Shown: positions 1,614 through 36,100 of the stretch, in pieces
Numbering within the stretch: position 1 is the first letter of the stretch
Layout: every line of letters starts with the position of its first letter
Source: Ectocarpus siliculosus
Lineage: Eukaryota > Sar > Phaeophyceae > Ectocarpales > Ectocarpaceae
DNA length: 43,945 nt
Direction: 5' to 3'
NCBI GenBank assembly: GCA_000310025.1
Contig: FN648446.1
Span: forward strand, 180,638-224,582
The notes under the pieces: generated by a model
What the model saw: the letters and a program-made list of their open reading frames with translations, nothing else
Databases searched by the model: none
What the model was told of the DNA's origin: nothing
Program-made: the position numbers and the translations under genes

Positions 1614-4147
1614 AAGCAGCGTGAAGTCTTACTTTACCGCACGGAACAGATTTTAGCGGCGGCAGCAGCAGCAGCAGGTGTTTGGTTCTACATCAAAATG
1701 CAGCAGCGTGTCTATCTTACTATTCCATAGACGGACCAGATTTTAGTGATGATGCACCCGGAATGGTCGCAGTATTGGTGAGTGACGAAAGCGACGCCCT
1801 CCCTATGGAAGAGGCCGCAGCTAGAGCAGCTGCAGGAGGCGGTGTGTGTTTTTGGCTGGGACAGGGAAAAGGGTACGGGAGTTGCACGTGCTCACTCGTG
1901 TTGAGTTAGAACTTGTTTTTCAGCAACTACAATCAGATTTGTTCACAAGCAGTGCTGTTGCTCTTGAGAGAGATAGGGGCACCGCGAGAGTGGGTAGAAG
2001 CGAGTGTTTGTGTAAGTACGGAGGGTGGTGGTGTGACTTGACCGGTTCTGTGGGGTTTTGGTGCGCCCTCCTCCTCCTTCCCGTTCCCACCCTCTGAATG
2101 GACAGGGACGCCACGAAGCGCCTAGATAGCTTGCTAGAGCGATAGTTGGTAAGTTAGAGGAGTTGCATTGAGACCACAACAAAGGATATGTTCTTCAAGC
2201 CTACGACGACGATTCATTGCCCCGGGGTGTGTGACGAACGTAGGGGGGGGCACTTGTGGGGTAGGGTAAGGGATTATGGCGGGCGCGCGTGTGCTTCCTC
2301 CTTTCTGCGTGGTAGCTTTTTGCGAAGGAGATTTGTGGACTAAACTATCTCGTGTATGCTGTCAGTCTGTTGTTGAAAATTCATGGTTTTGGGAGAAGAC
2401 GGGGGAAGGACAGTGAACGAGGTCCCGGGGAAAGATGCAGAGAGAAAAATCTCGGTTTCGAAAAATAGCAAAGTACTTGTAGCGAAAACTACTTCCAGAT
2501 ATATCGGATACACGTAGGCCCAAATCCCTTTCACGAAAAGATCACGTTGCTGTTTTGGGGCGATATTTCCTCTGTAAAACTGCTGGTCTCTTGGGTTGGT
2601 GTTGACACGTGCTAGCCTCTCGCTTGCTTTTGCCTTGCGGGTTGACAGCTGTGCACACGGGCGTATCCACGTGAGGTTAGTCATGGAGTTGCAGGAGGGG
2701 GGCGGGGCTCGTTGTGGTAAAGGGTGCCGGGGGTGTACCTCTTCCCCCCCCCTGGAAAACGGGCTGGCTTGCACTCCTCGTGGTACATAGTTGTAGGTCG
2801 GTAACGGTAACCTAGAACTCGGCAGGGGGTCTTAGTGTGGTCGAGTGCCGTGATACCGATGACATCCGTGGATAGTTTTGAGGTCGAACGCATGAGGGAG
2901 TACAATAGAACGGTGTATGCGTTCGTTGTTTCAGGCATTCGTTCATCCCAGCGGTCGGTGGCGTTGGTGATGTCTCCTGCCACCGCGCGCGCTTGCCGAG
3001 CGGTATGGACGATTTGGTAGTGTGGTGACTGACGTCGCCCTGCTCTGTGAAAGAAATCTTAAACCACAAGAAGTCGACTTGGTTTTTGGAAACGAAGCAT
3101 ACATACACTAGAAGAACAACGGAGATGAAGACCACAGCCAACAATATTAAGAATCCGGGCTGGCCTCAATGCGTACAAAAATGCACACCTTCGAGGACGC
3201 AAGGTGCATATAGCCTAACACTTAGGCTGCATTTGAACTCGCTGCGCGGGTCCTTCTTAACTGCTATCAAGCGTGTTACAGATACAGAAAATAGTTGCTG
3301 TCTTGAGCGGATAATTCATACACCAAAATAGCCGCCCTTCGTACCATACTTGACGAGTAATAACACACGTACGTACAGTCAGTGCTCACAGTTTTGCACA
3401 GTACAAGCCCAAAATTGTTTATCGGCAGACGCCGAGAAAAACGTGTCAAGTGTTCGTGTTGTCCACAAGGAAAACCCGGCACGGCCATGGTATCAGCCGT
3501 GCAAAACGGTGGAAACAGAACCTTAACCTTCACGAGAGGCAACTCTCCCGGCTAAAGCAGGTCCCTAAATACATTTGCGTGTAGCACCCTACACGAAATG
3601 CCAAAAACCATCAGCACCAAGTTTGCGAGAAAAAATACACGTAGTTTCACACCACACTTAGTTATGGTTCACACCAAAGCCAAACAGAGGCGAAGGTGCA
3701 CCCTAAACTACAACGCCTCGGGGAAGGCAGCATGTTCATTTGTCCATCCGCTTTTTCGTCATACATCCTTTGTTGCAGTCGCTCGCGTTGCGGTTTCTAC
3801 ACGTCCCACGGTCTTTGTTCCGTGCTCGCCTGAAATACGTCTGGAACTACAACGTGTATGTATGCGAAACACACAGAAAGCACGGTGAAGTGAGCCCGAA
3901 CAACTTGGTTCCCCGGAAACAGGCGGTTCTTCTGTGTTCACGGCGTAGACCACTTCTTGTGTAGTTCTCTGTGTGCTACAGGAGGATTGAAATGACGGAC
4001 CCGTCGTCCACGTTGGCAGAGTGACAGGGAGTTCTACGCCCGTTGTATTGGCAATTCGGTCTTCCCTGTCTCAGTCGGGCTCCTTCTCCCTCTCTTCTCT
4101 CTCTCATGGCGCACAACTAAAACAACCCATCGGACACCCTACACGCG
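1614..4147. other. Convergent intergenic region, 3' flanks only
   Basis: This lies between the ends of a plus-strand gene (1613) and a minus-strand gene (4148), so it should hold two 3' UTRs. A run of CAG triplets follows the upstream stop at about 1665-1678. Open frames up to 144 codons (for example minus 2340-2774) show no domain, no supporting splice neighbours and no consistent codon bias. I see no RNA gene, inverted repeat or mobile-element end. Confidence 0.5.
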
Positions 4148-14445: not shown

Positions 14446-14980
14446 TTAGCAGCCGGTGTTCGCCACTGCCTCATCCACGCTGAGGTCTTCCCCGAACACG
14501 AGGATCTGATCGATCTGCAGCCCGTGGGAGCGGCCGGAGATCTCCATGGCGTACTCGCCGGCCTCCTCGAACTCGACGGCGATCTGGGTGTGGCCGTGAG
14601 AGTCCTCCCCGGTCCCCGAGTACTCGAAGTCTCCGTTCGTGGCCCTGCCGTAGACCTTGATGAACGTGCCGTAGCTCTCCTGCGTGCCCGCCGGCCCGTA
14701 CCGCTTGGCGTCGGGGAAGTTCAGCCAGGCGTCGTTGCCCTTGTCGCTCTCGACGCCGTCGGGCTGGCGCATCAGCCACTTGAACGAGTAGGTGCCCGCG
14801 GTCGGGACCTGGATGGAGGCGGACATGATGTCCCCGTCCGCGGGGTCCCCGTTGTTCTGCCCCTCGGACAAGCCTTCCCAGGTGATGTACTTCCCGCCGC
14901 TCGCGTCGGCGTCGTTCACGACGCGCCAGTCGCCTAGAACCGGGAGGTCTTCGGCCTCCATGCGTACGACCATGCAGCCG
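14446..14980 (-). other. C-terminal CBM6/CBM35-like module (exon 13)
   Basis: After the acceptor tttcag the exon reads SGCMVVRMEAEDLPVLGDW, then ITWEG, a GTYSFKWLM strand and finally RSHGLQIDQILVFGED before the stop (TAA). The MEAED opening and the late GLxIDxIxv strand are typical of CBM6/CBM35/malectin-like beta sandwiches, which bind polysaccharides. The exact family is not decided by eye. Confidence 0.6.
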
Positions 14981-17900
14981 CTGAAACGGAAGGGCGGGGG
15001 AGAGCAAGAAACGGGCGGGGAGATTAGGCAGGGTTGCTCATTTGGTGCGTACACTTTGACTGGGGGAGGGGGGTCGGGTTTGTTCGTGCGGGAATGTTTG
15101 CCCCGGGGGAGGCTGACTACAGTACTGGCGTTTGTGTGCTGTTTTAGGTGCTCACACTAAATTACCTGACACACTGCATTATTGGCATCATCTTCGCTGC
15201 GGTAGAAGCGTTGAGTGAGTAACGTTCTTACCTCGTTGGTTCGGAGACCGGGGCAGGTGTGGCCACAGGGGAAGGGGCAACGGGTGCCATGGTAGCGGGA
15301 TCGACGGGCGCCGAGGTGGAGAGGGCGACGGGCGGGCGCGTGGTGCTGACGGGTGAAGGGGTGATCGGCTCGACGGTGACCGATGGACGGCACTGGGTGT
15401 TGTGGGCGCACGGGTAGGGGGGGGGCGGCGGAGGGGTTGTTGGTTGGGGTTGTCAAGAGCTGCGGCAAAAAATCAACGTTTGTTCGATGTAGCTCCTGCT
15501 TGATTGAGGCTAAACTGCTGCTACTACTGCTACCCGTGTGCAGAACCCTTCTATTCTAGTAGAGTGTAAAAGGTATGTTGAGTCACAGCGAGTCGTTTCT
15601 CGATAAAATACAACTATCAAAGAAGCCTTTCATGTCCTAGACATGCACCTACTCAGAGTCACGGAAACCTCCAAAGTGGAGCAGATGCGCAGCGGGATCA
15701 CTGGGTACTGCTGTGTCTGCCGGTGTACGATACGTCCGCCTCTTGCTCCCGGTTCGTGCCCAAAAGGATCGTGTGCACTCCCAACCGTCAACAACTTCAA
15801 GAGCTTTCCAGCGGACCAAGCCGATTGGATGTTTTCTGTCTTCTGTGCTGACCTGAGCATAGCAGCCATCTTCGACCATCTGGGTGCAGTCGTAACCGTC
15901 CATGCAGCACGTCGACCCGGTCCAGTCCTTGCCCCCGCACTAGGTTAACGAATATCACGTGTTGCGGTAGCGAGAATCGACAAAACACGGGGTGGGTTAG
16001 ATTGAGCCGCATCTCAGTCAAGCTGTATTTCTTGCTCACTGCCCCGCGGCGGTAGCAACCACGGGAACCAAATAGCAACCTGTCTAGATATTGAAGCGCC
16101 ACAAGCATCATCGGGTACGTACATGGGTGGGTGGCACTCACTATAGCAAACAGTCAACCGTGACTAAATAGCTGCGACTTGCGACCCACCTGCTCGTAGG
16201 CCTCGACCGGAGTGCCCGAGCACAACACCGTCGACGTCGTCTGGAGTTTGTAGAGATCGAACGAGTTGAACCCTCCGCAAGGCTGGGTCTGTGTGGAGAA
16301 GGGCGGCGAAAGACGTGTTCGATGTTCACAACGAGGTTTAGACCACATTGGGTGTAGTATCGATGGGTTGTTTGGTGGCTCGATGACGGTATCGACAGAG
16401 CGGTCTGGCCACGCTCGGATTTGAGTTCGGGGGTTGGGAGTTCTCTTCGACTGGGACGGGCAGCAGAACCAGCCGCTCTCGGGACAACGAGCAACACCGC
16501 AATCAAGTTTAGGCTATAATACGTACCACCACCATGTCGCAGGGATTGCCCGTTCCCTCCGTTCGGATCTGGGCACACCCGTCCGTGTCATCAGATATGC
16601 CAAAGACGCTCACCTAGACCTACGCTTGTGCTGGTGTCCGTAATCGATGCTGCCATAAAAAGAGTTAAACATTGAAGTTTTCCGCACCGCGACTGCCACG
16701 TCAAACTACCACTTGGCACTCTTGCTGCTGCTGTACCTTATCGCCCCGGCAGGACATGTCGCACACAGCGTCGGCGTCGTTCATTTGGTAGTGGCGCTCG
16801 TAGTCGAGGAGCTCATCGGCGGAGCACCAGCACTCGAAGCCGAACTGGGTTGCCATGAACGCAGCGCCTAGCTCCGTGCAGTGCGCCAGGCAAACCTGAA
16901 CGCCAGTGGCCGAAACAAAGGTAGAGACGGAGTGACCTTGGTGCTTGCCTCAGGTACAAATTCATGGTAGCGACGAAGCACGCAATTCTACCCGTCTATA
17001 TCGAGGGCTTCTCCTCCCAACAGGGGTGTGTCTCCCAAGGGCCAAAGGCGTGCCGCGGGCGGGAGGGGGGCGATGGCCGACGTTCATCGACGAAACAAGG
17101 CAATTTACATGATAAACAGTCCACTTGTATACGACGGCAATATAGATGCTATCTCCACGTTCCTGCTGTTGGTCCCGTTGTCTAGCCAGCAAGACGAACC
17201 AATCTGGTCCGAGAACTCAATGGTTGTACACAGCAGAGTCGCGTACACAAAAATGCCCCCGTCTTCATCATCACCTCGGTAGTCATGTCCACGGAGTCGA
17301 GCTTGTCCCCCAGGATGCGGTCCTCCTTGTTGTCATGGAAGCAGCCGACGTACTCAGCCTCTTCCCCGTCGCCGACGTCACCGTCCGTGGGGGGGGGCGT
17401 GGTTTCAATGGGTTCGGGGGTCATCGTGGTCCCAGCAGTGGTGGGCTCCGCGGTCTCTTCCACGGGAGCCGGTGTGGGTTCCGGGGTGGCAGCAGCGGTA
17501 GGCTCCGCCGTCTCTTCGATGGGAGCTGGGGTCGGATGCAGGGGTTCGGCGGTAGCTGCAGCGGTGGGCTCCGCCGTCGCGTCGACGGGGGCGTCGGTTG
17601 CGGTAGGGCGGCTTCGGGGCTGGGCGTCGGGGTCTCTGCAGGCGACGATCCATCTGCAGATTCGATGAAAAAAGGGGCAAGGGAGACACCAGTTTGTTTC
17701 TGGTTGTGTCGAGCAACATGTTGCAGAGAGAGGAAATGAGGAGAGGGGTAAACTTCACGCAACACGCTTTTCGTGTATGACCAAAGTTGAGCTTTGGGAT
17801 GAGGAGTACTATATATGAGATAAGTATTTCTCTCTCTCTCTCTCTCTCGTTTCTGCGGTCAATAAATGCTTTCACGCACCGGCCGTGATCGCGATGTCGG

Positions 17901-20900
17901 AGCACGCCCAGAACTCTTCAGCGAGGTTCCACTCATTGTCGCCGCAGTAGTCGATGCTCAGGTCAATCCAGTCAGACTTGTTGGGCGCGCACTCGCTCCC
18001 CCAGGAGGCGGGGTTGAACTCTTCATATCCAGGGTGGTAGCACTTGTGTCCGGTGTCTGTGTGTCGTGTCGCACCAACACGGAGAGTGGGTGGGGGGGGG
18101 GTAGAGGGGCGTGAGCGATGTACCCGGCGACGCAAACACAACACCGTCGCTATGCATGAGCAATCTTTTTCCCGCGCAAGATACCCGGATTGGATTCGGA
18201 GGGGAGGCATGCGAATCGTCGGCATTCGACTAAGACCCAAGATCTAAGGGAAACGCCTCCAGCGGGGGGCACGCTACTGCCTGCCGGTGGCGGGGGGTCG
18301 TGTGCGAAGGTTTCGCTTTCTACCTTGGAGAATCCCAGACCAACTGGGCGCGAGAAAACTGTTCACAACTTTGGGAGAGAAGTGTCCCCGCCCGCCTGCT
18401 CGCCACACGCGCAAACACGCACAAATGAACAGGTGGGCAACAGAACGAGTCGCGACCGGCCTACGCAGAACGCATTACCACTACTTCCACAGCTGACCGG
18501 CCTATACGAAGCGCCACTCACAGTACCACATCTGGAGGACGCAGTGTTCGCAGACGAGGTTCTCGGGCAGGTCGTAGTTCATGGTCATGACGTAGCCGCC
18601 ACCGGCCCGCCAGTCGTAGTCCTGCTCCGTCTCGTTCTCACGGCAGGGGGGGTCCGCGTAGTAGCGCCCGGGGTAGTTGGGGTCGATGGGGCTGTTGACG
18701 CCGTCGCCTTCCGAACGTGTCAGCGGGTACTTGTTGAAGCACTCCTGCGGGCAGCGGGCAGCGTCGTCGTGGTATCGGGGGGGGGGGGTCAGCAGGAGCA
18801 ACAACCGTCAGCCAAATGGATAATTACTGTAGAAACGGTGAAGCAGAAGCAACACAGGGTGGCGGGGACGAGCACGGGAGGCAGCTGCTGTAGGTCAACG
18901 CGCCGCCAACGATGTTCCTCTGCTGCTCGGATACTTTCATGCACGCATGCATGTCTCAAGTGTCTGGTTTTTGATGATGCGGTTGTGTCGTGTACATATG
19001 TACCTGGGTGGCGACGTCATCGGGATCATCGAGGTCTTGAGTGTCGCAGATGAAGAACTCCAAGTGCCCCTGCGTCACGAGGGAGAAAGGGTGCGGGGGG
19101 GGGGGGGGGGGTACCCCAATTTTTTTCATGCCTTAACGGTTAAACCATTTACCCCCCCTCCCCCAAAAGAAGGAACTTTTTTCCCCCAGGACCCAACCCC
19201 CATGGCCAATCTTTTCTTCCTACTTTTCCAAAGGGGGCTCAAAAATATTTTCCCTAATTTTTTTTTCCTAAAAAATTCCCTTCCCCCCTTTTTAAACCCC
19301 TTCCTACTCCCCAATAAACCTACCCTCCCCTCCTCTTTTTTCCATGCCCCAAAAATTTCCCTTTACTTCCCTTTTTTTTTTCCCCCCTCAATCATCATGT
19401 AAACTTCCCTCTCCCCTTCTTACCCCGGAAATTTCCCAAATACTTTAAAACGGTTTTCCCATTCGGGGGGGGGGGATTTTTTTCTTTTTTTTTTTTGGTT
19501 TCAAAAACCTCCGGGGTTTTCGCTTTTTTCCATTTTTNNNNNNNNNNNNNNNNNNNNNNNNNNNNNNNNNNNNNNNNNNNNNNNNNNNNNNNNNNNNNNN
19601 NNNNNNNNNNNNNNNNNNNNNNNNNNNNNNNNNNNNNCCAAGGGCCCTTGGGTCACGGGGGAAAAGGGGGGGGGGGGGGGGGGGGGGCGTACTCGAATGT
19701 TTTGCATGCCTTAGCGGTTAGACCATTGACCACGCGTCCTCGAGAGGACGGAGCTTTGTTCCCACAGGACCGATCACCGATGGCCAATCGTTCCTTCCTA
19801 CTTTACCAAAGGTGGCTCAAAAATATCTTCCCTAGTCTGTCTATCCTAACGATATCCCTTCCCGCCTTTTCAAACCACTTCCTACTCCCCAGTACAGCTA
19901 CCGTCCTCTCCTCTCTATTCCATGCCTCAAACATCTCCCTGTACGTCCCTTGTATTTTTCCCAGCTCAGTCATCATGTACACTTCCCTCTCCTCTTCGTA
20001 CCACGGACATTCCACGACTACATGAACACGGTCTTCGCATTCGGGGGGGGGGGATTCGTTCCTTTGTTTGTTGTGGTTCGAAAACCGTCGGGTGTTTCGG
20101 CTCTAGTCCATCTTAAACGGTCGACACGACCAAAAACGAACTCAAGGGTATAATGCCGTTTTATTACAAAACTGCCCCGTACGGTTATGATGAACACTGT
20201 TGCAAAGAGACCCAAACTGCCGTGTATAGGTGCAGTTTTAAGCTACAATGTGGTCGGCGGTTTCCTCCCTCGCCCTTTCGTCACGATCGGTTGGCAGGAG
20301 GTGTCTTTCACGACACGACGATTCACGTACAGGTGTGTATTTTTCTCAAGTTTCCCCCTCTTCCGCATAATATATCGCATGTGAAACAACACAGTTTGTG
20401 GTTCGTTCCCCTTCTTCCACAATATATCATGTGGAACAGCACAGGAAGTACATACGCACATAGTGCCACGCCTTCATGACGGCCTTGATCTCCATAGACT
20501 GGCCCTGCTTGAACTCTTGGAGGACCGGCCAGTCCTTGTTGGGCGTGCTGTAAGTGTTCTCGCCGTCCTGTCCACCCTGATCACCCTGACAAAACGAGGC
20601 AGCAGCAAGCGCGACCACGAGGAGTACATATGCGGGAGGAAAGAAAGGCGGGGGGCAAACCGAGGACAGAAATTTCAGCTGGGTGTCCTTGATCGGCAGT
20701 GTACAGGCCTTGAAGGGGTCTTTTTGAGAGGGCGGGGGGGGTACACAAAAGAAGGTGACGCCGGAAAAAACATCAAAACCGGGTTGGACTCCTTGGGACT
20801 TTCTCCCCGACGGTTTCAGCCAATAACTTTGCATCGTTCGCCATCGGTAGAATCAACGCGGAAGATAACAAGTCCATAATACAACACATCAGCAGCATAG

Positions 20901-23770
20901 CAGCAGTACAGCGGTGTTGCTGGTAGTTTTTCTTCTGCATACGCGTCCCTGCCTTGGCCGATGGGGGCACCACGACCGCTGATGATTGGACTGGCACAAG
21001 AAGAGCTGTTCAACAGCTCTCCAACGAAACGTCAAAACTTAACACACGTGTGCTTCTACGAGGTTGCCTGTTCGAATTATGTACCTCGTACAGCAGTGGT
21101 ACAGGTAGAGCATGAATTAGCGAACTCGTGGGTCACTATAGCGTGAAGACCCCAAACGCTTGGAAGCACGAAACTTGGTACTGAAATTTGTGCTGACAAC
21201 CAGGGAAGAGCACAAACTACAGCAGTGAGAACAGACAGTGGGTCACAACGACGTGCGTTTAGGTTGAAGTAGGTGGTCGTGAGAGTGCGTTTAGGTTGAA
21301 GTAGGCGGTCGTGAGAAACGTACCGATTTCGGGTCGCCGCACACCCCGTGCCGGACGGAGATTCCCTGAGGCTCGATGTAGTTTCCGTTGGGAGCCATCT
21401 CACCTGGGTGAAGAAATGAGTATGGGGGGTACGTGCAGGAGTGAGGGGGGGGGGGGGCACATTCACGCACCACACCATTGAAGTTCTCCGGTCGAATCAC
21501 ACTTTGCACTTGAGGGTCCAACTATTATGCATTTGTTTCATCTCGGACAACGGCGTACAACATAGCACCGCCTGCACGGGGGTAGCGAGACGTCGAAGAA
21601 TGTCTCGAATCCAAGCCATTTTAAACTCGTCATCCACGGCAACCCAAAAAAAATACTTGTGGTGCTAGAGAGACGCAAAGACAAGGACGAACGAGCAGGG
21701 GGGGGGGCGTTGCCGCCGTATTTATACATTCTTACATACGAATCGTTGCCCCCGGTTGGTAGCATGCCCCGCCATCCATCAAGTGTTGATACTGCGGTGG
21801 TAGATGACGGCTACCTTATGCTGGCAGAAGAGGGTGATCGTGAACACCAAACCAAAACGACCACCAAACAAAGTGAGAGAATGCACGCGTGTACGCGCGT
21901 TTGCAACAACAACGTCGGCATCATAAAAAGGCAACCAAGTCAGGCCACACGCCGCGCCACCTTTATCGTACACCCAGCGGAGAGGGTACCATCCGTCGCC
22001 GTACTCGGCGAGGATGGCAGGGTCGGTGAGCCTGCGGGCGCGGTCCTGGACTTCCACTTGCCCTCCCGCGTTGTAGGCCCCGGCATTTTTCTCGAGCAGA
22101 GGGAAGTTGCTGTTCGTGGTTCGTGACGGAGGACGCCGCCCACGTGCAGGGAACAATACACGACGGTGTGGTTTATAACGAAGGAAGGGGGGGGGTGCGA
22201 TGAGGTAAGAATGTGGTCTGAATACTTGGACAGCAACATCGGTATAAACGGCGTTGTATGTGTTGGCCGGGCCACGTCCTGCTTCGAGTGGTAGAGGCGG
22301 GATATCGGGGGGTACAATTGAGGGAAACGACGTGATTGTTCAATAGTTGTTCAATAGTTCGTGTTGTTAGAATTGAACGGCTACATAGCGTTACAACGTG
22401 TGCATCGATACATGCATCGGGGGGTTGAAACTAAAAGGTATTGTTCACCGTCGCCCTGCTCTTGTGACAGGCTCTAGCGCCAACTGCTGCCAGCCTTGAC
22501 AGCCACCATATACCCCATCTGTTTAGGAATAAGAACACATACATGGTCCGTTCACTTTGAATACGCGTGTACAGTGGCAGCTAGCTGTGAAAACAACCGT
22601 TTAAACTTCGGAAAACGAAAACAAACATGACTCGCCCCCTTGGCAGGGAGGAACAGCCCCAGCATGTGCACACACACACGTAATGGCAGGAAACACGCCG
22701 GAGGCCTGCGCCACGTGAAAATCAACACTTTGCTGACGACTCTTCAAACGCTGCCCCATTTGTGCAGGCGACTGGGGTTTGAGCCGGAGTTTCGCCGCCA
22801 AACCCCGCTAATCCATTCATAGTCAGGGGATTCAGTTGAGTTAGACTGGATGGGGGAGCAGTTAGGGAGTTTCCCAGAGATGTTGCTTTCGCGGTCAGGA
22901 CGAAGATTGTCCCAGCGTGTTCATTGAACCTATTTCAAAAGGCGTTCTTCGCCCTAGACGATGGACTCACGCATAACACCGTTGGTATTGGTGCACATTT
23001 ACTTCATCTCTTTTTGGTTGGGATATTTTTACGTTGCGCATCTACAGTAGTACATGAGGGACACGACGCATATATACGGAGTAGCCTATATTGGCTGACT
23101 CAAAGCGCCATACTCGAATCAGTCAGTCTTGCTGAGTACGAAACGTTTCCGGTTTGACAAGAAAGCTCGCATTGCCACTCTCTAAATAGAGGTCGCACAG
23201 CAGTATGTACCGAATCGGTGTCTGACGTTGAAAACAAAGCGCGTTGTATGGGCGTCCTAGGGTAGACCGTTGGGCTTACACTACAAGTAGCCTAATCAAT
23301 ATAAGGTGGTACTGAAGTAGGAAAATAGAGGGGGGTTGTATGCCAAAGAAACGCGAGTCAACGACGTCAAACAACAAAGCCACTCACTCTTCTTGGTAGA
23401 CCGCAGACATGTAGTATCTGGAACGGAGGGCCAGAGCACGCGACAAGACAGAACAGCGCGCGGCGGGTTTGGGGCGCGTGAGCGGAGCTTTAATTTGAAG
23501 AGAACTACGGAACGACGTTGGAGAATATATTCTCCCGGATGTGTAACACCGTTATGGACACATGGATGCGGAGGCGGCGCGTAGCACGAAGGATCGACGC
23601 ATTACGCAGGGAGGGGTCTCGTGACAACTCTGCTGTACGTACGGTAAATATACTTACTGCCGGCTTTCGACGATGTAGATATGAGCGTCTACCGCTGGAG
23701 TGATGAACAAGGCAGCCAAGCCGCCTGCCATGACTCCTGCCGCAACGGCCCAGGAGCGTTGCTGCGGCAT
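14446..23770 (-). CDS. Secreted LPMO-like protein with WSC, CBM1 and CBM6/35-like modules
   Basis: Thirteen exons: 23770-23658, 22109-21961, 21403-21324, 20585-20460, 19069-19004, 18744-18522, 18056-17880, 17555-17275, 16895-16737, 16288-16190, 15939-15853, 15459-15232 and 14980-14446. Predicted length is about 773 residues. Residues 1-29 are a signal peptide (hydrophobic AGVMAGGLAALFI, cleavage after VDA), leaving His30 (HIYIVESR) as the mature N-terminus. The catalytic part then shows ISVRHGVCGDP, the second brace histidine in KAWHYGHLEFFIC (His155), ENLVCEHCVLQMWY and EEFWACSDIAI (Phe301, possible axial residue). These are hallmarks of the AA10/AA15-type LPMO fold, copper enzymes that oxidatively cut glycosidic bonds. 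A Thr/Pro/Glu linker, the WSC domain (380-473), a CBM1 (489-520), a second Pro/Thr linker and a beta-sandwich-like C-terminal module follow. All junction phases agree except for a one-base excess at the G run 15417-15425. The exact AA family is unassigned, and the acceptor of exon 8 is chosen by phase. Confidence 0.75.
15417..15425. repeat. Nine-base G run that breaks the reading frame of exon 12
   Basis: On the minus strand this is C9. Upstream of it exon 12 is read in phase 0 (LLTTPTNNPSAAP). Downstream, the Thr/Pro-rich linker (VEPITPSPVSTTRPP) and the phase-2 join to exon 13 lie in another frame. One base fewer, or two more, in the run would restore a continuous frame. Confidence 0.7.
15853..16198 (-). 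other. CBM1-like cellulose-binding module (exons 10-11)
   Basis: YEQ at the end of exon 10 joins CGGKDWTGSTCC in exon 11, then DGYDCTQ and ending GCYAQ at residue 520. This is the fungal-type CBM1 pattern (YxQCGGxxWxGxTxC...C...Y.Q). A cysteine lies directly before the terminal Tyr, whereas the usual last Cys follows the final Gln; here the next exon supplies Leu, so disulfide pairing may differ. CBM1 typically binds crystalline cellulose through a flat aromatic face. Here a Trp and Tyr residues are present. Confidence 0.82.
16244..17352 (-). other. WSC domain (exons 8-10)
   Basis: The domain opens YVGCFHDNKEDRIL, continues MTTE/VCLAHC across the exon 8/9 splice, then GFECWCSADEL and CDMSCRGD, and closes CGGFNSFDLYKL across exon 9/10. 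This matches the WSC pattern: YxGCF start, MTxExC, the C.C core and the terminal CGGxNxxxLY. WSC domains occur in yeast wall-stress sensors and in many wall-associated or carbohydrate-active proteins, and probably bind wall glycans. Confidence 0.88.
17829..17848. repeat. (TC)n microsatellite in LPMO-like gene intron 7
   Basis: About ten TC units lie roughly 30 bases inside the donor side of the intron following exon 7. Confidence 0.85.
19061..19537. other. Low-quality duplicate of the right flank of the gap
   Basis: From about 19095 the sequence degenerates into stretched homopolymers, but line by line it is a distorted version of 19638-20113: for example catgcctta.cggtta, tggccaatc, cctactccc and tcatcatgta recur in order with the same spacing. 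The segment should be merged with the right flank, not counted twice. Confidence 0.85.
19538..19637. other. Assembly gap of exactly 100 N
   Basis: One hundred N characters, the customary placeholder for a gap of unknown size. It lies in the intron between exons 4 and 5 of the LPMO-like gene. The flanks overlap, so the gap is probably not real missing sequence. Confidence 0.95.
19803..20060 (-). mobile_element. 3' tail of a LINE-type reverse transcriptase ORF (fragment)
   Basis: Minus-strand translation gives a phrase beginning CEDRVHVVVECPWYEEERE, then further Lys/Glu-rich sequence ending FLSHLW before a stop. The Cys..His...Cys arrangement followed by CPxYEEERE is typical of the C-terminal end of non-LTR retrotransposon reverse-transcriptase ORFs. 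Only about 80 codons remain. It is in the same orientation as the host gene and lies within intron 4. A distorted second copy at 19.1-19.5 kb is an assembly artefact. Confidence 0.65.
21253..21316. repeat. Tandem duplication, 2 x 32 bp
   Basis: Two adjacent 32-base units (21253-21284 and 21285-21316) beginning gtgcgtttaggttgaag differ at a single base (t/c). They lie inside intron 3 of the LPMO-like gene, just beyond the exon 3 donor at 21323. Confidence 0.92.
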
Positions 23771-33192: not shown

Positions 33193-36100
33193 CCCCCCTT
33201 ACGCGGCCTGCGCGGCGGAATCGGTGGCGACAACTCGCTCGCGATGCAATGATTCGGCGGAGCGCAGCAAGGAGATCGAAGGCACTAAGTGTGAGTCCCA
33301 AATGAATGCGGAAGTTCAAGCTGTATGTATCCTGCTGCTGTGTTGTTTTTCGCGTCTTGGCGTGCGTAACGGCGTATATCTGCACGGCGTGGTCAGGACA
33401 TGCTCCATTTATATATTGGTTCGAACCTCTGTTGTACGTACGTAACGTACCACAAAACATATGGTATGCCTAAGTGTACCTGTTCTGTGTTTCGGCTGTG
33501 GCGCGGCGGTGGTTGAAAGTTGACAAAGCCACCAGAAGGGCGTGTGTATGGGAGGCCGAGAACCCCTGTGTGTCATCAGCACATTCGCAGCCAGCGACCA
33601 TTTTTGTGGGACCGGCGAATCCCTGGAGAATTTACCTGTAGTTAAACAGTTACATCTGTGCTGTGATCCCTCTTTGCAGGTGGGAAGTTGAGAGTCTACA
33701 TGACTTACAAGAAGTAGACCTTGGGGGATGGGGCCGTTTGGCGACAACGAAGAGGATTAGTGGTATGCTTGACTTACGATGGCACAACAGGTTCAAGGAT
33801 TGACTTGGAGAGAAGGGAGGGGGGGCATCTCTGTGCTCTCTTTCTCACGCGCTGGGCCGGGGTGCATATCTCTTGGCGTCTGGATACAATCTGTCTCGTT
33901 GCATGTTTTCGTCCACGTCGTCCGTTCCATGCAGCTGCCTCGAAACTCGACAGAAGTAGTAGTTAACGGGCGTGGTACAGAGCAGTTGTAAGCGTCGTTT
34001 GATGCGCAAGCTCGAGCGAACTTTCCTTCACAGTTTCTTGTTCGCCACGTGCAGATGAACCAGAAAGTAGCTCACTGGCGAAACGTGAATTATTGTCCCC
34101 CCTCGCTGCCCTCCCCCCCCAAAAAAAAACTTGTGCTTGTTGGACCGAAGCACGAGATTTTCCGGTGTTCGTATTTTCCATGCCCCCTTAACAACCTAGG
34201 AGAGTTCCGTTGATGCTTGAAGCCACAACTGGAACGTGTTGATCCATCCGCGAACTTCCAAGCAAATCACTTCTCTGCTGTCGCAGATAGTGACCGCGCC
34301 AAGAGGCTTTTCCTTGCTCCAAAAACAGAGAAAGAAGGGCATTCCTCGTCGCACACCGTTATCTTCAGGGACAGCACCAAAAAACAATGTAGTTTTTTTC
34401 TTCTTGTACAACAGAAAACGGAGCCTAGGGGCTTGCTGCGTTGGAGGACCCCGCAACCACGTACGCTCATGTTTGTCCCTCCAATGTACTTCTAGCTTGT
34501 CCCTGTCTTCTCCTCATGCTGTGCCTCTTTCTCTCTCTCTCTTTCGATTCGTCTGTCGGCGCGTGTCTCTCGTCTGCCGGTCTGCAGCCGCAAAGGCCCG
34601 CGGGTCTAACCTGCGGGTCCACTTCAAGCACATGCGCGAGGTGGCGCACCTGATCAAGGGCATGAAGCTGTCCAAGGCCAAGGTGTACTTGCAGGTGAGA
34701 ATCGCGCAAGTGTGCCGGTCGATTCAACTCACAGCAGCCGAAACGTGGATGCCTTGCACCCTCATCTGTCTGCGTGGTCCTGTTTGTTGCACTGTCTGTC
34801 TGCCTGTTCCCCATTCACTTGAAGCAGTCGAACGTGGATGTCTTGCTGCACCCTCATCTGTCTTGACTGTCTGCGTGTTCCCCATCTGTTGTTGCATTTG
34901 CAACACCCGACCTTTTTTGTGTTGAACCTGGCACAACTGCTGTCCGGCGGGTGCTCCAGCTGTTCTACATTACCACTTTTTAGGCGTCATAACGTCGTTG
35001 TGGTCGTCGCCAGAGATCAACCTGCAGGAGAAGGGCACTGACTCCAGGCTTCTTTCCCAGACAAATTTAGTTTTTTGTTGAGCCCTTCTGTTTCCACCCC
35101 TGACCCAAACACACACTGTAAAGGGGGTGCCCCGTGTTCCTGGTTGATAATTCCTCACATCTAGTTGCAGCTTCCCGTCACCCCCCGCCCGCTGCAACCG
35201 CGTAGTACCTTGCTTCCGGTTACACGTTTTTGGCTGCTACGCTACGTGTTCACCGCCAGCTGACCGGTCTTCGTCCGTCGCTCTTGCTCGCCCTCGTTTT
35301 CTTTAGGACGTACTTGAGTACAAGCGCGCGGTGCCCTTCACCATGTTCACCGGCGGCGTCGGCAGGCACGCTCAGGGCAAGCTGCCTATCGCCAAGGACT
35401 ACATGGGGGACCCGTCCAGCAAGACGGTGAGAAGGAAACACGCCGGGAAGCGGGGGGGTGACGTGGGTAGGGGTGGGGTGGGGGCTGCCAGCGAGAGTGG
35501 TGCGGTGCCTTTCTTATAGTATCGTGGGGGTCCTGTCTTGATGTGATGTCACCGTGAGAGAAACCTGATGAACTATCTCGCTTTACGGTCCATGACTCCA
35601 GGTTTTTTCGTGTGCCTCTTCTTCGTCGATCAGTGTTTTAATTCCGTGGAAGCTTGCCTCGCAAACACTGGTCTGACGTTCCCATATTGAACCCAGCATT
35701 TTGCAACGTTTATGAAGGCCTAGTGTCTAACACGCACACCCCAGATGAGATTTGATCGAGGCGGGGGGTGTGTTGGCAAGAAACAAAACGCCAATAGTTG
35801 CCGAAAGCGCGTGGCGTTGTGTTTTCATGATCGCGAGAGACGCTAAGGTATGGATGTTCTCTGCGGAGGAACCGACCGTAGACGATCGTTGCGGCAGCAA
35901 GGTGTTATGTTTGGCATCGTGGAATTACACATGGTGTAGGTTTTCGTCGAAAGCGTTCGTGAACAGCAGACAGTACTTCCTGGTGTCTAATGAAGAGCAA
36001 GCACCGGAAGATTCTAACGTTTATCAGGAAGTCGTTCGAAGTATGTGTCACTGGTGTACTCTGTCGGTGCTTAAAAATCGTTTGGTCCTAGCCCCACCTC

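Follow-up and report, generated by a model that had tools for sequence, protein, structure and literature searches.

Gene model and modules of the predicted protein

The window analysed here is a stretch of 43,945 nucleotides from Ectocarpus siliculosus (contig FN648446.1, positions 180,638 to 224,582). It carries on its minus strand a predicted gene of 14 exons, which reaches from the start at 23770 to the stop at 14446 and has a spliced product of 789 residues. The modules of this protein are, from the N- to the C-terminus, a signal peptide, a histidine (His30), a catalytic core of the lytic polysaccharide monooxygenase (LPMO) type (LPMO_10/AA15), a linker, a WSC domain, a CBM1 module, a second linker, and a C-terminal domain (CTD) of 178 residues. 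All exon junctions are GT-AG, with phases matching throughout. A previous reading of the stretch from its letters (the sequence-only reading) had proposed 13 phase-compatible exons; its start and stop agree with the present model, its exon count does not. The features of the gene are as follows, with the basis of each in brackets.

23658..23770, minus strand: exon 1, signal peptide (residues 1-29) and mature N-terminal His30 (gene model; paralogs)
23388..23417, minus strand: exon 2, AA15 core (phase, GT-AG)
21961..22109, minus strand: exon 3, AA15 core, without a CPxC motif (gene model; paralog comparison)
21324..21403, minus strand: exon 4, AA15 core, RHGVCGDP motif (gene model; paralog comparison)
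20460..20585, minus strand: exon 5, AA15 core, second copper histidine His165 in KAWHY (gene model; 5msz alignment; paralogs)
19004..19069, minus strand: exon 6, AA15 core, GHLEFFICD (gene model; assembly search)
18522..18744, minus strand: exon 7, AA15 core, CEHCVLQMWY (gene model; assembly search)
17876..18056, minus strand: exon 8, end of AA15 core, putative axial Phe311 in EEFWACSDI (gene model; assembly search; 5msz profile alignment)
17275..17635, minus strand: exon 9, Thr/Pro/Glu-rich linker, then start of WSC (gene model; Pfam)
16737..16895, minus strand: exon 10, WSC (gene model; Pfam)
16527..16613, minus strand: optional in-phase exon within WSC, omitted from the model (Pfam WSC complete without it)
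16190..16288, minus strand: exon 11, end of WSC and start of CBM1 (gene model; Pfam)
15853..15939, minus strand: exon 12, CBM1 (gene model; Pfam; assembly search)
15232..15392, minus strand: exon 13, final CBM1 cysteine and second linker, Pro/Thr-rich (gene model)
14446..14980, minus strand: exon 14, CTD (178 residues), stop at 14446 (gene model; CTD searches)

The domain search of the spliced protein, which the sequence-only reading had proposed as a check, returned three Pfam families above their cut-offs: LPMO_10 (E 2.7e-15, residues 106-317), WSC (PF01822; 57.3 bits, E 1.8e-15, residues 418-502, profile positions 1-82 of 82) and CBM1 (PF00734; 36.6 bits, E 4.1e-9, residues 526-550, profile positions 1-25 of 29). 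The final cysteine of CBM1 is encoded in exon 13, beyond the Pfam match. The signal-peptide-like N-terminus, read by eye, ends right before His30, as had been stated, and in 9 of the 17 paralog loci of the same genome a histidine was likewise located behind a signal-peptide-like stretch and together with an SRQ motif (the remaining eight gave no located exon 1). In the assembly searched (189 Mb, 492 contigs), exon 1 and its surroundings matched only themselves.

Two variants of the model were rejected. A constitutive exon at 16613-16527 would interrupt the WSC domain, whose profile is already matched over its full length without it, and a frameshift in exon 9 is not needed, since an alternative donor/acceptor pair preserves the phase. 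Intron 1 (23418-23657) interrupts a stretch (SRQ...YQE) that is an uninterrupted open frame in the paralog L010 and others (L numbers are our handles for AA15 loci); this intron is likely to be specific to the window gene.

The AA15 core and its relatives in the genome

Among the sequences of the Protein Data Bank (PDB), the protein matched the Thermobia AA15 LPMO 5msz_A (E 6.5e-8 as single sequence) and no other entry at E<=10; with a seven-row profile the match to 5msz improved to E 8.5e-11, and no other PDB sequence was found at E<=1. An LPMO-like family of NCBIfam was matched only far below its cut-off (15.7 vs 75 bits). Judged by these comparisons, the core belongs with AA15.

The copper site of the Thermobia enzyme, TdAA15A, has been named as His1, His91, Ala89 and Tyr184 (PMC5823890). 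The single-sequence alignment to 5msz pairs His165 with His91 and Ala163 with Ala89. The LPMO core of the sequence-only reading is recovered by Pfam; its second histidine, His155, is not part of the model; the second copper histidine is His165 (mature residue 136). Going by motif, Phe311 would fall at Tyr184, and that stretch alone contributes 0.0 bits to the profile alignment. The counterpart of His165 is present in all 11 paralog groups in which the exon is covered (L009-L013 and L019 lie outside this coverage). That both histidines are conserved speaks for a two-histidine brace. The ratio of nonsynonymous to synonymous substitution rates (dN/dS) of the core against L002, L003 and L005 is 0.38-0.41 (258 codons), which falls within the range among these three paralogs themselves (0.27-0.42). 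On these data the predicted gene is real, well-formed, coding and under constraint.

The core search of the assembly yielded 67 exon-level matches including those of the window gene, and the remainder were grouped by us into 17 loci, some of them partial. In this grouping L019 is no more than a piece at the end of a contig, L006/L007 is one locus with long runs of N, and L004/L005 is taken as one gene, with WSC and CBM1 matches kilobases behind the core. The Pfam LPMO_10 model, when run against the assembly, returned one place only (on C16); because such a search works exon by exon, it missed the window gene. CBM1 follows the core in 11 of the 18 loci, window included (E<=0.1; in L006 and L008 only weakly); WSC was found in the window gene, L003, L004/5 and L014-L017, and weakly in L019; the CTD was matched in just two loci, the window gene and L016. 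The assembly as a whole has at least 102 WSC pieces (best 150 of 244 candidates scored). L003 has the order AA15-WSC-CBM1 and L016 the order AA15-WSC-WSC-CTD. As predicted from these loci, the genome couples related catalytic heads to different binding tails.

Loci L014-L017 (G000:C456:907500-957000) are four adjoining AA15 genes with highly similar heads (proportion of synonymous differences, pS, 0.11-0.16 for the four pairs computed) and differing tails. The WSC domains of L014 and L015 differ from that of L016 at pS 0.53 and 0.66, respectively, for which gene conversion of the heads or mispaired WSC repeats are possible explanations. In the core tree L016 clusters with the adjacent L014, L015 and L017 (100/100), three loci in which the assembly search found no CTD (E<=0.01). 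Between the window gene and L016, pS is 0.43 in the CTD vs 0.59 in AA15 plus WSC, a difference reached by 28 of 5000 shuffles, with the caveat that WSC repeats may be mispaired and codons are not independent. This pattern suggests tail reassortment, i.e. a mosaic history, in a direction that the data do not fix. That the window gene and L016 came to share the CTD by a recent transfer, later than the split of L016 from L017, was rejected, as pS of the CTD (0.43) exceeds that of L016 vs L017 (0.12).

L001 (G000:C16:4492500-4496500) is an intronless AA15-CBM1 gene that adjoins SNase-like and thaumatin-like open reading frames (ORFs); the ORFs at this place are 1132-2241, 2296-2781 and 2840-4000, all on the plus strand. 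The SNase-like ORF also matches a phage endonuclease family. L001 could be of viral origin; a scan of viral contigs with its single-exon AA15 core gave no match.

The C-terminal domain and the remainder of the window

The CTD, i.e. the last 178 residues of the protein (exon 14), is not matched by any Pfam model, even at E as high as 10. Its two copies in the assembly (window gene and L016; E<=0.01) are 74% identical, with a proportion of nonsynonymous differences (pN) of 0.16 beside the pS of 0.43. A search of plasmids returned one distant relative, WP_268076856.1 of Catenovulum adriaticum (26% identity over 91%, E 4e-7), encoded on plasmid pCadTS8_2 with 'algae' in the source field; a second plasmid round seeded by this match returned only the same protein. 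Behind its CTD-like part (residues about 77-253) lie a Big_7-like stretch, which scores below cut-off, and a malectin domain. The two proteins resemble each other in the CTD-like part, and the Catenovulum protein differs from the window protein in being bacterial and in having no LPMO_10 match. No relative of the CTD was found in two scans of prokaryote genome contigs or in a scan of viral contigs, all of them narrow, with seeds of a few short peptides from two or three sequences, nor among phages by tblastn.

The CTD opens with EAED and contains ASGGxY and a G-T-Y pattern, features which we take to resemble CBM6/CBM35-type modules. The best profile match in the PDB was 2wz8 (E 0.083, non-significant), presumably a clostridial cellulosomal CBM35 module, and the next was an unrelated-looking protein (E 0.094). 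A single-sequence structure model was mostly beta, of poor confidence (predicted local distance difference test, pLDDT, 47.5). A Foldseek search with this low-confidence model gave a best E of 2.4e-3 and none <=1e-3; its top rows include CBM61, 27, 22, 6 and 35, and its list also contains toxin components, haemagglutinins and other non-CBM proteins, so that it serves as a hint only. The CTD is likely to be a carbohydrate-binding beta-sandwich; its membership of CBM6 or CBM35 is unproven, and it differs from these modules in having neither a Pfam match nor a significant PDB sequence match. Of the three glycan-binding or wall modules named in the sequence-only reading, WSC and CBM1 are borne out by Pfam, and the CBM6/35-like module is represented by weak signals. 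The CTD is a concrete candidate for a carbohydrate-binding family that would be new.

Two further features, which the sequence-only reading does not mention, lie in intron 5 of the gene.

19538..19637, no strand: assembly gap of 100 N (sequence)
19697..20043, minus strand: high-copy repeat (96-97% identity to at least 39 other assembly places; best 40 of 2367 candidates scored)

The gap stands between two copies of the same sequence (flanks 19060-19536 and 19638-20114), of which one is badly degraded and rich in homopolymer-like errors; exon 6 (19069-19004) was taken from the sound copy. The gap is probably an unresolved overlap of contig ends, and with flanks duplicated in this way the true intron 5 is probably shorter. 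The frames of the repeat look, in our view, like the end of a retroelement protein. Among ten further open frames of the window there was a single Pfam match, to ribosomal protein L22/L17e at the end of the ORF at 34236-34925 (1.9e-7).

Proposed function and relation to known systems

The findings are best described by one gene for a secreted, multimodular LPMO of the AA15 type, a reading that we regard as highly probable on the evidence of sequence comparison. A secreted LPMO-like enzyme with several binding modules had been proposed in the sequence-only reading, for a probable brown alga, and this agrees with the Pfam domains, the match to 5msz and at least 150 EsV_1_7_cys matches in the assembly (all of the 150 that were scored, out of 880 candidates); an expanded EsV-1-7 family is a mark of brown algae. 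The protein would be exported, and the N-terminal amine, His30 and His165 would bind copper. CBM1 would anchor the enzyme on cellulose, and WSC and the CTD would tether it to further glycans of the wall or matrix. Given O2 or H2O2 and a reductant, the core could then nick glycosidic bonds of crystalline cellulose and so loosen or remodel the wall of the alga itself. Such oxidative attack on the cellulose of its own wall is the most likely role, and we consider the chances of this specific substrate and role about even. Known AA15 substrates are cellulose and chitin (PMC5823890); cellulose is favoured because CBM1 is frequent among the loci and no chitin-binding module is recognised in the window protein, and chitin may be an alternative substrate, which counts against the cellulose assignment.

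Several departures of the window copy from its paralogs also weigh against an ordinary, active AA15 enzyme. The spacing from the mature N-terminal histidine to SRQ is 6 residues vs 8 in all eight paralogs compared; the value for L005 assumes a cut before the second of two possible start histidines, and a spacing of 8 is a trait of the AA15 members in this genome, with no published standing as a family criterion. The CPxC pair is absent from the window gene and present in five of the eight paralogs examined (L001, L002, L003, L005, L010); the frames printed for L014, L016 and L018 do not show it, and there it is possibly lost or on another exon. The end branch of the window gene in the core tree (17 rows, L019 omitted) is 0.74 vs a median of 0.07; L001 has the only longer end branch (1.16), and the C456 group has a longer stem (1.23). 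Finally, the LPMO_10 match of the window protein begins at residue 106, short of His30, and that of L001 begins at residue 17, its mature histidine. A dN/dS in the range of the paralogs together with these divergent traits points to a gene that is constrained yet likely specialised, in which oxidative activity is likely but is not to be assumed.

These departures are what would be expected of a divergent AA15 protein with lost or altered oxidative activity that serves mainly as a multivalent wall-binding protein: two residues are missing directly after His30, the CPxC pair is gone, and the core branch is long. His30, His165 and Ala163 are retained, however, with Phe311 probably at the axial place, and the dN/dS of about 0.4 lies within the range of the three paralogs compared; we regard this explanation as rather unlikely. 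The gene could also serve in defence, against cellulose or chitin in the walls of oomycetes or other invaders; AA15 enzymes act on chitin and cellulose (PMC5823890) or on chitin (PMC8393829), and brown algae also have PR-1 proteins with a fused WSC (PMC12879055). The protein has no chitin-binding module or chitinase domain by Pfam, however, and its recognised CBM is of the cellulose type, so that a defence role appears unlikely. That the model wrongly joins two or more neighbouring genes might be suspected from the 9.3-kb span, the assembly gap in intron 5 and the long linkers. Against this, phases fit throughout, by eye there is no signal peptide in the open frame just ahead of the CTD in either copy, and the recurrence of AA15-WSC-CBM1 in L003 and of AA15-WSC-WSC-CTD in L016 argues for one gene and transcript rather than neighbours; a false join is thus very improbable.

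For the secreted AA15-type enzyme, a wider setting can be put forward tentatively. Brown algae might possess a combinatorial kit for oxidative wall remodelling, in which the about 18 AA15 loci of this genome share the copper head, and WSC, CBM1 and a new unclassified domain binding the algal wall are shuffled at exon boundaries to direct it; the window gene, shortened behind the first histidine, would be specialised for a new substrate, possibly at the interface of cellulose and matrix (alginate or fucoidan). To our knowledge, little is known on how brown algae loosen cellulose during growth, and the approximately 18 AA15 loci with varied binding tails are direct candidates for this process.

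The sequence-only reading had taken the gene for the best candidate for an undescribed system, with a domain order that it did not recognise. AA15 members of Phaeophyceae and AA15-CBM1 fusions are already in print (Sabbadin et al. 2018, PMC5823890), as are AA15-WSC fusions (PMC8615602), and the genome holds 17 further AA15 loci including AA15-WSC-CBM1 in L003; that the system is undescribed is not borne out. Unusual are the combination of four modules and the CTD, which occurs in 2 of 18 loci. CBM1-fused AA15 enzymes occur in Saprolegniales oomycetes, and those of Aphanomyces astaci have been tied to attack on crustacean chitin (PMC8393829). The main text of a 2024 survey of matrix enzymes in brown algae, in which Auxiliary Activities are part of the overall CAZyme count, contains no occurrence of LPMO, AA15, lytic polysaccharide or WSC (PMC11468063). 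A literature search, in which subscription journals were mostly uncovered, found, among the papers listed, no publication announcing a four-module AA15-WSC-CBM1-CTD protein. New are this four-part combination and the CTD itself.

In comparison with TdAA15A (5msz) and other AA15 LPMOs, the window protein has in common the N-terminal histidine after a signal peptide, (predicted) secretion, the motifs AxH-x-G-x-(F/L)EF and CxxCVLQ, and fusion to CBM1, which is known in AA15. It differs from TdAA15A in a probable axial Phe in place of Tyr184 and in the additional WSC and CTD, and from the other AA15 members compared in this genome in the shorter spacing after the first histidine. With the published AA15-WSC LPMOs it shares AA15 and WSC; CBM1 plus a third module are not named in the available text on these (PMC8615602). 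With the AA15-CBM1 proteins of Saprolegniales it shares a stramenopile AA15 core with a C-terminal CBM1; the available text on the latter, in which WSC was not searched for, mentions no WSC or CTD (PMC8393829).

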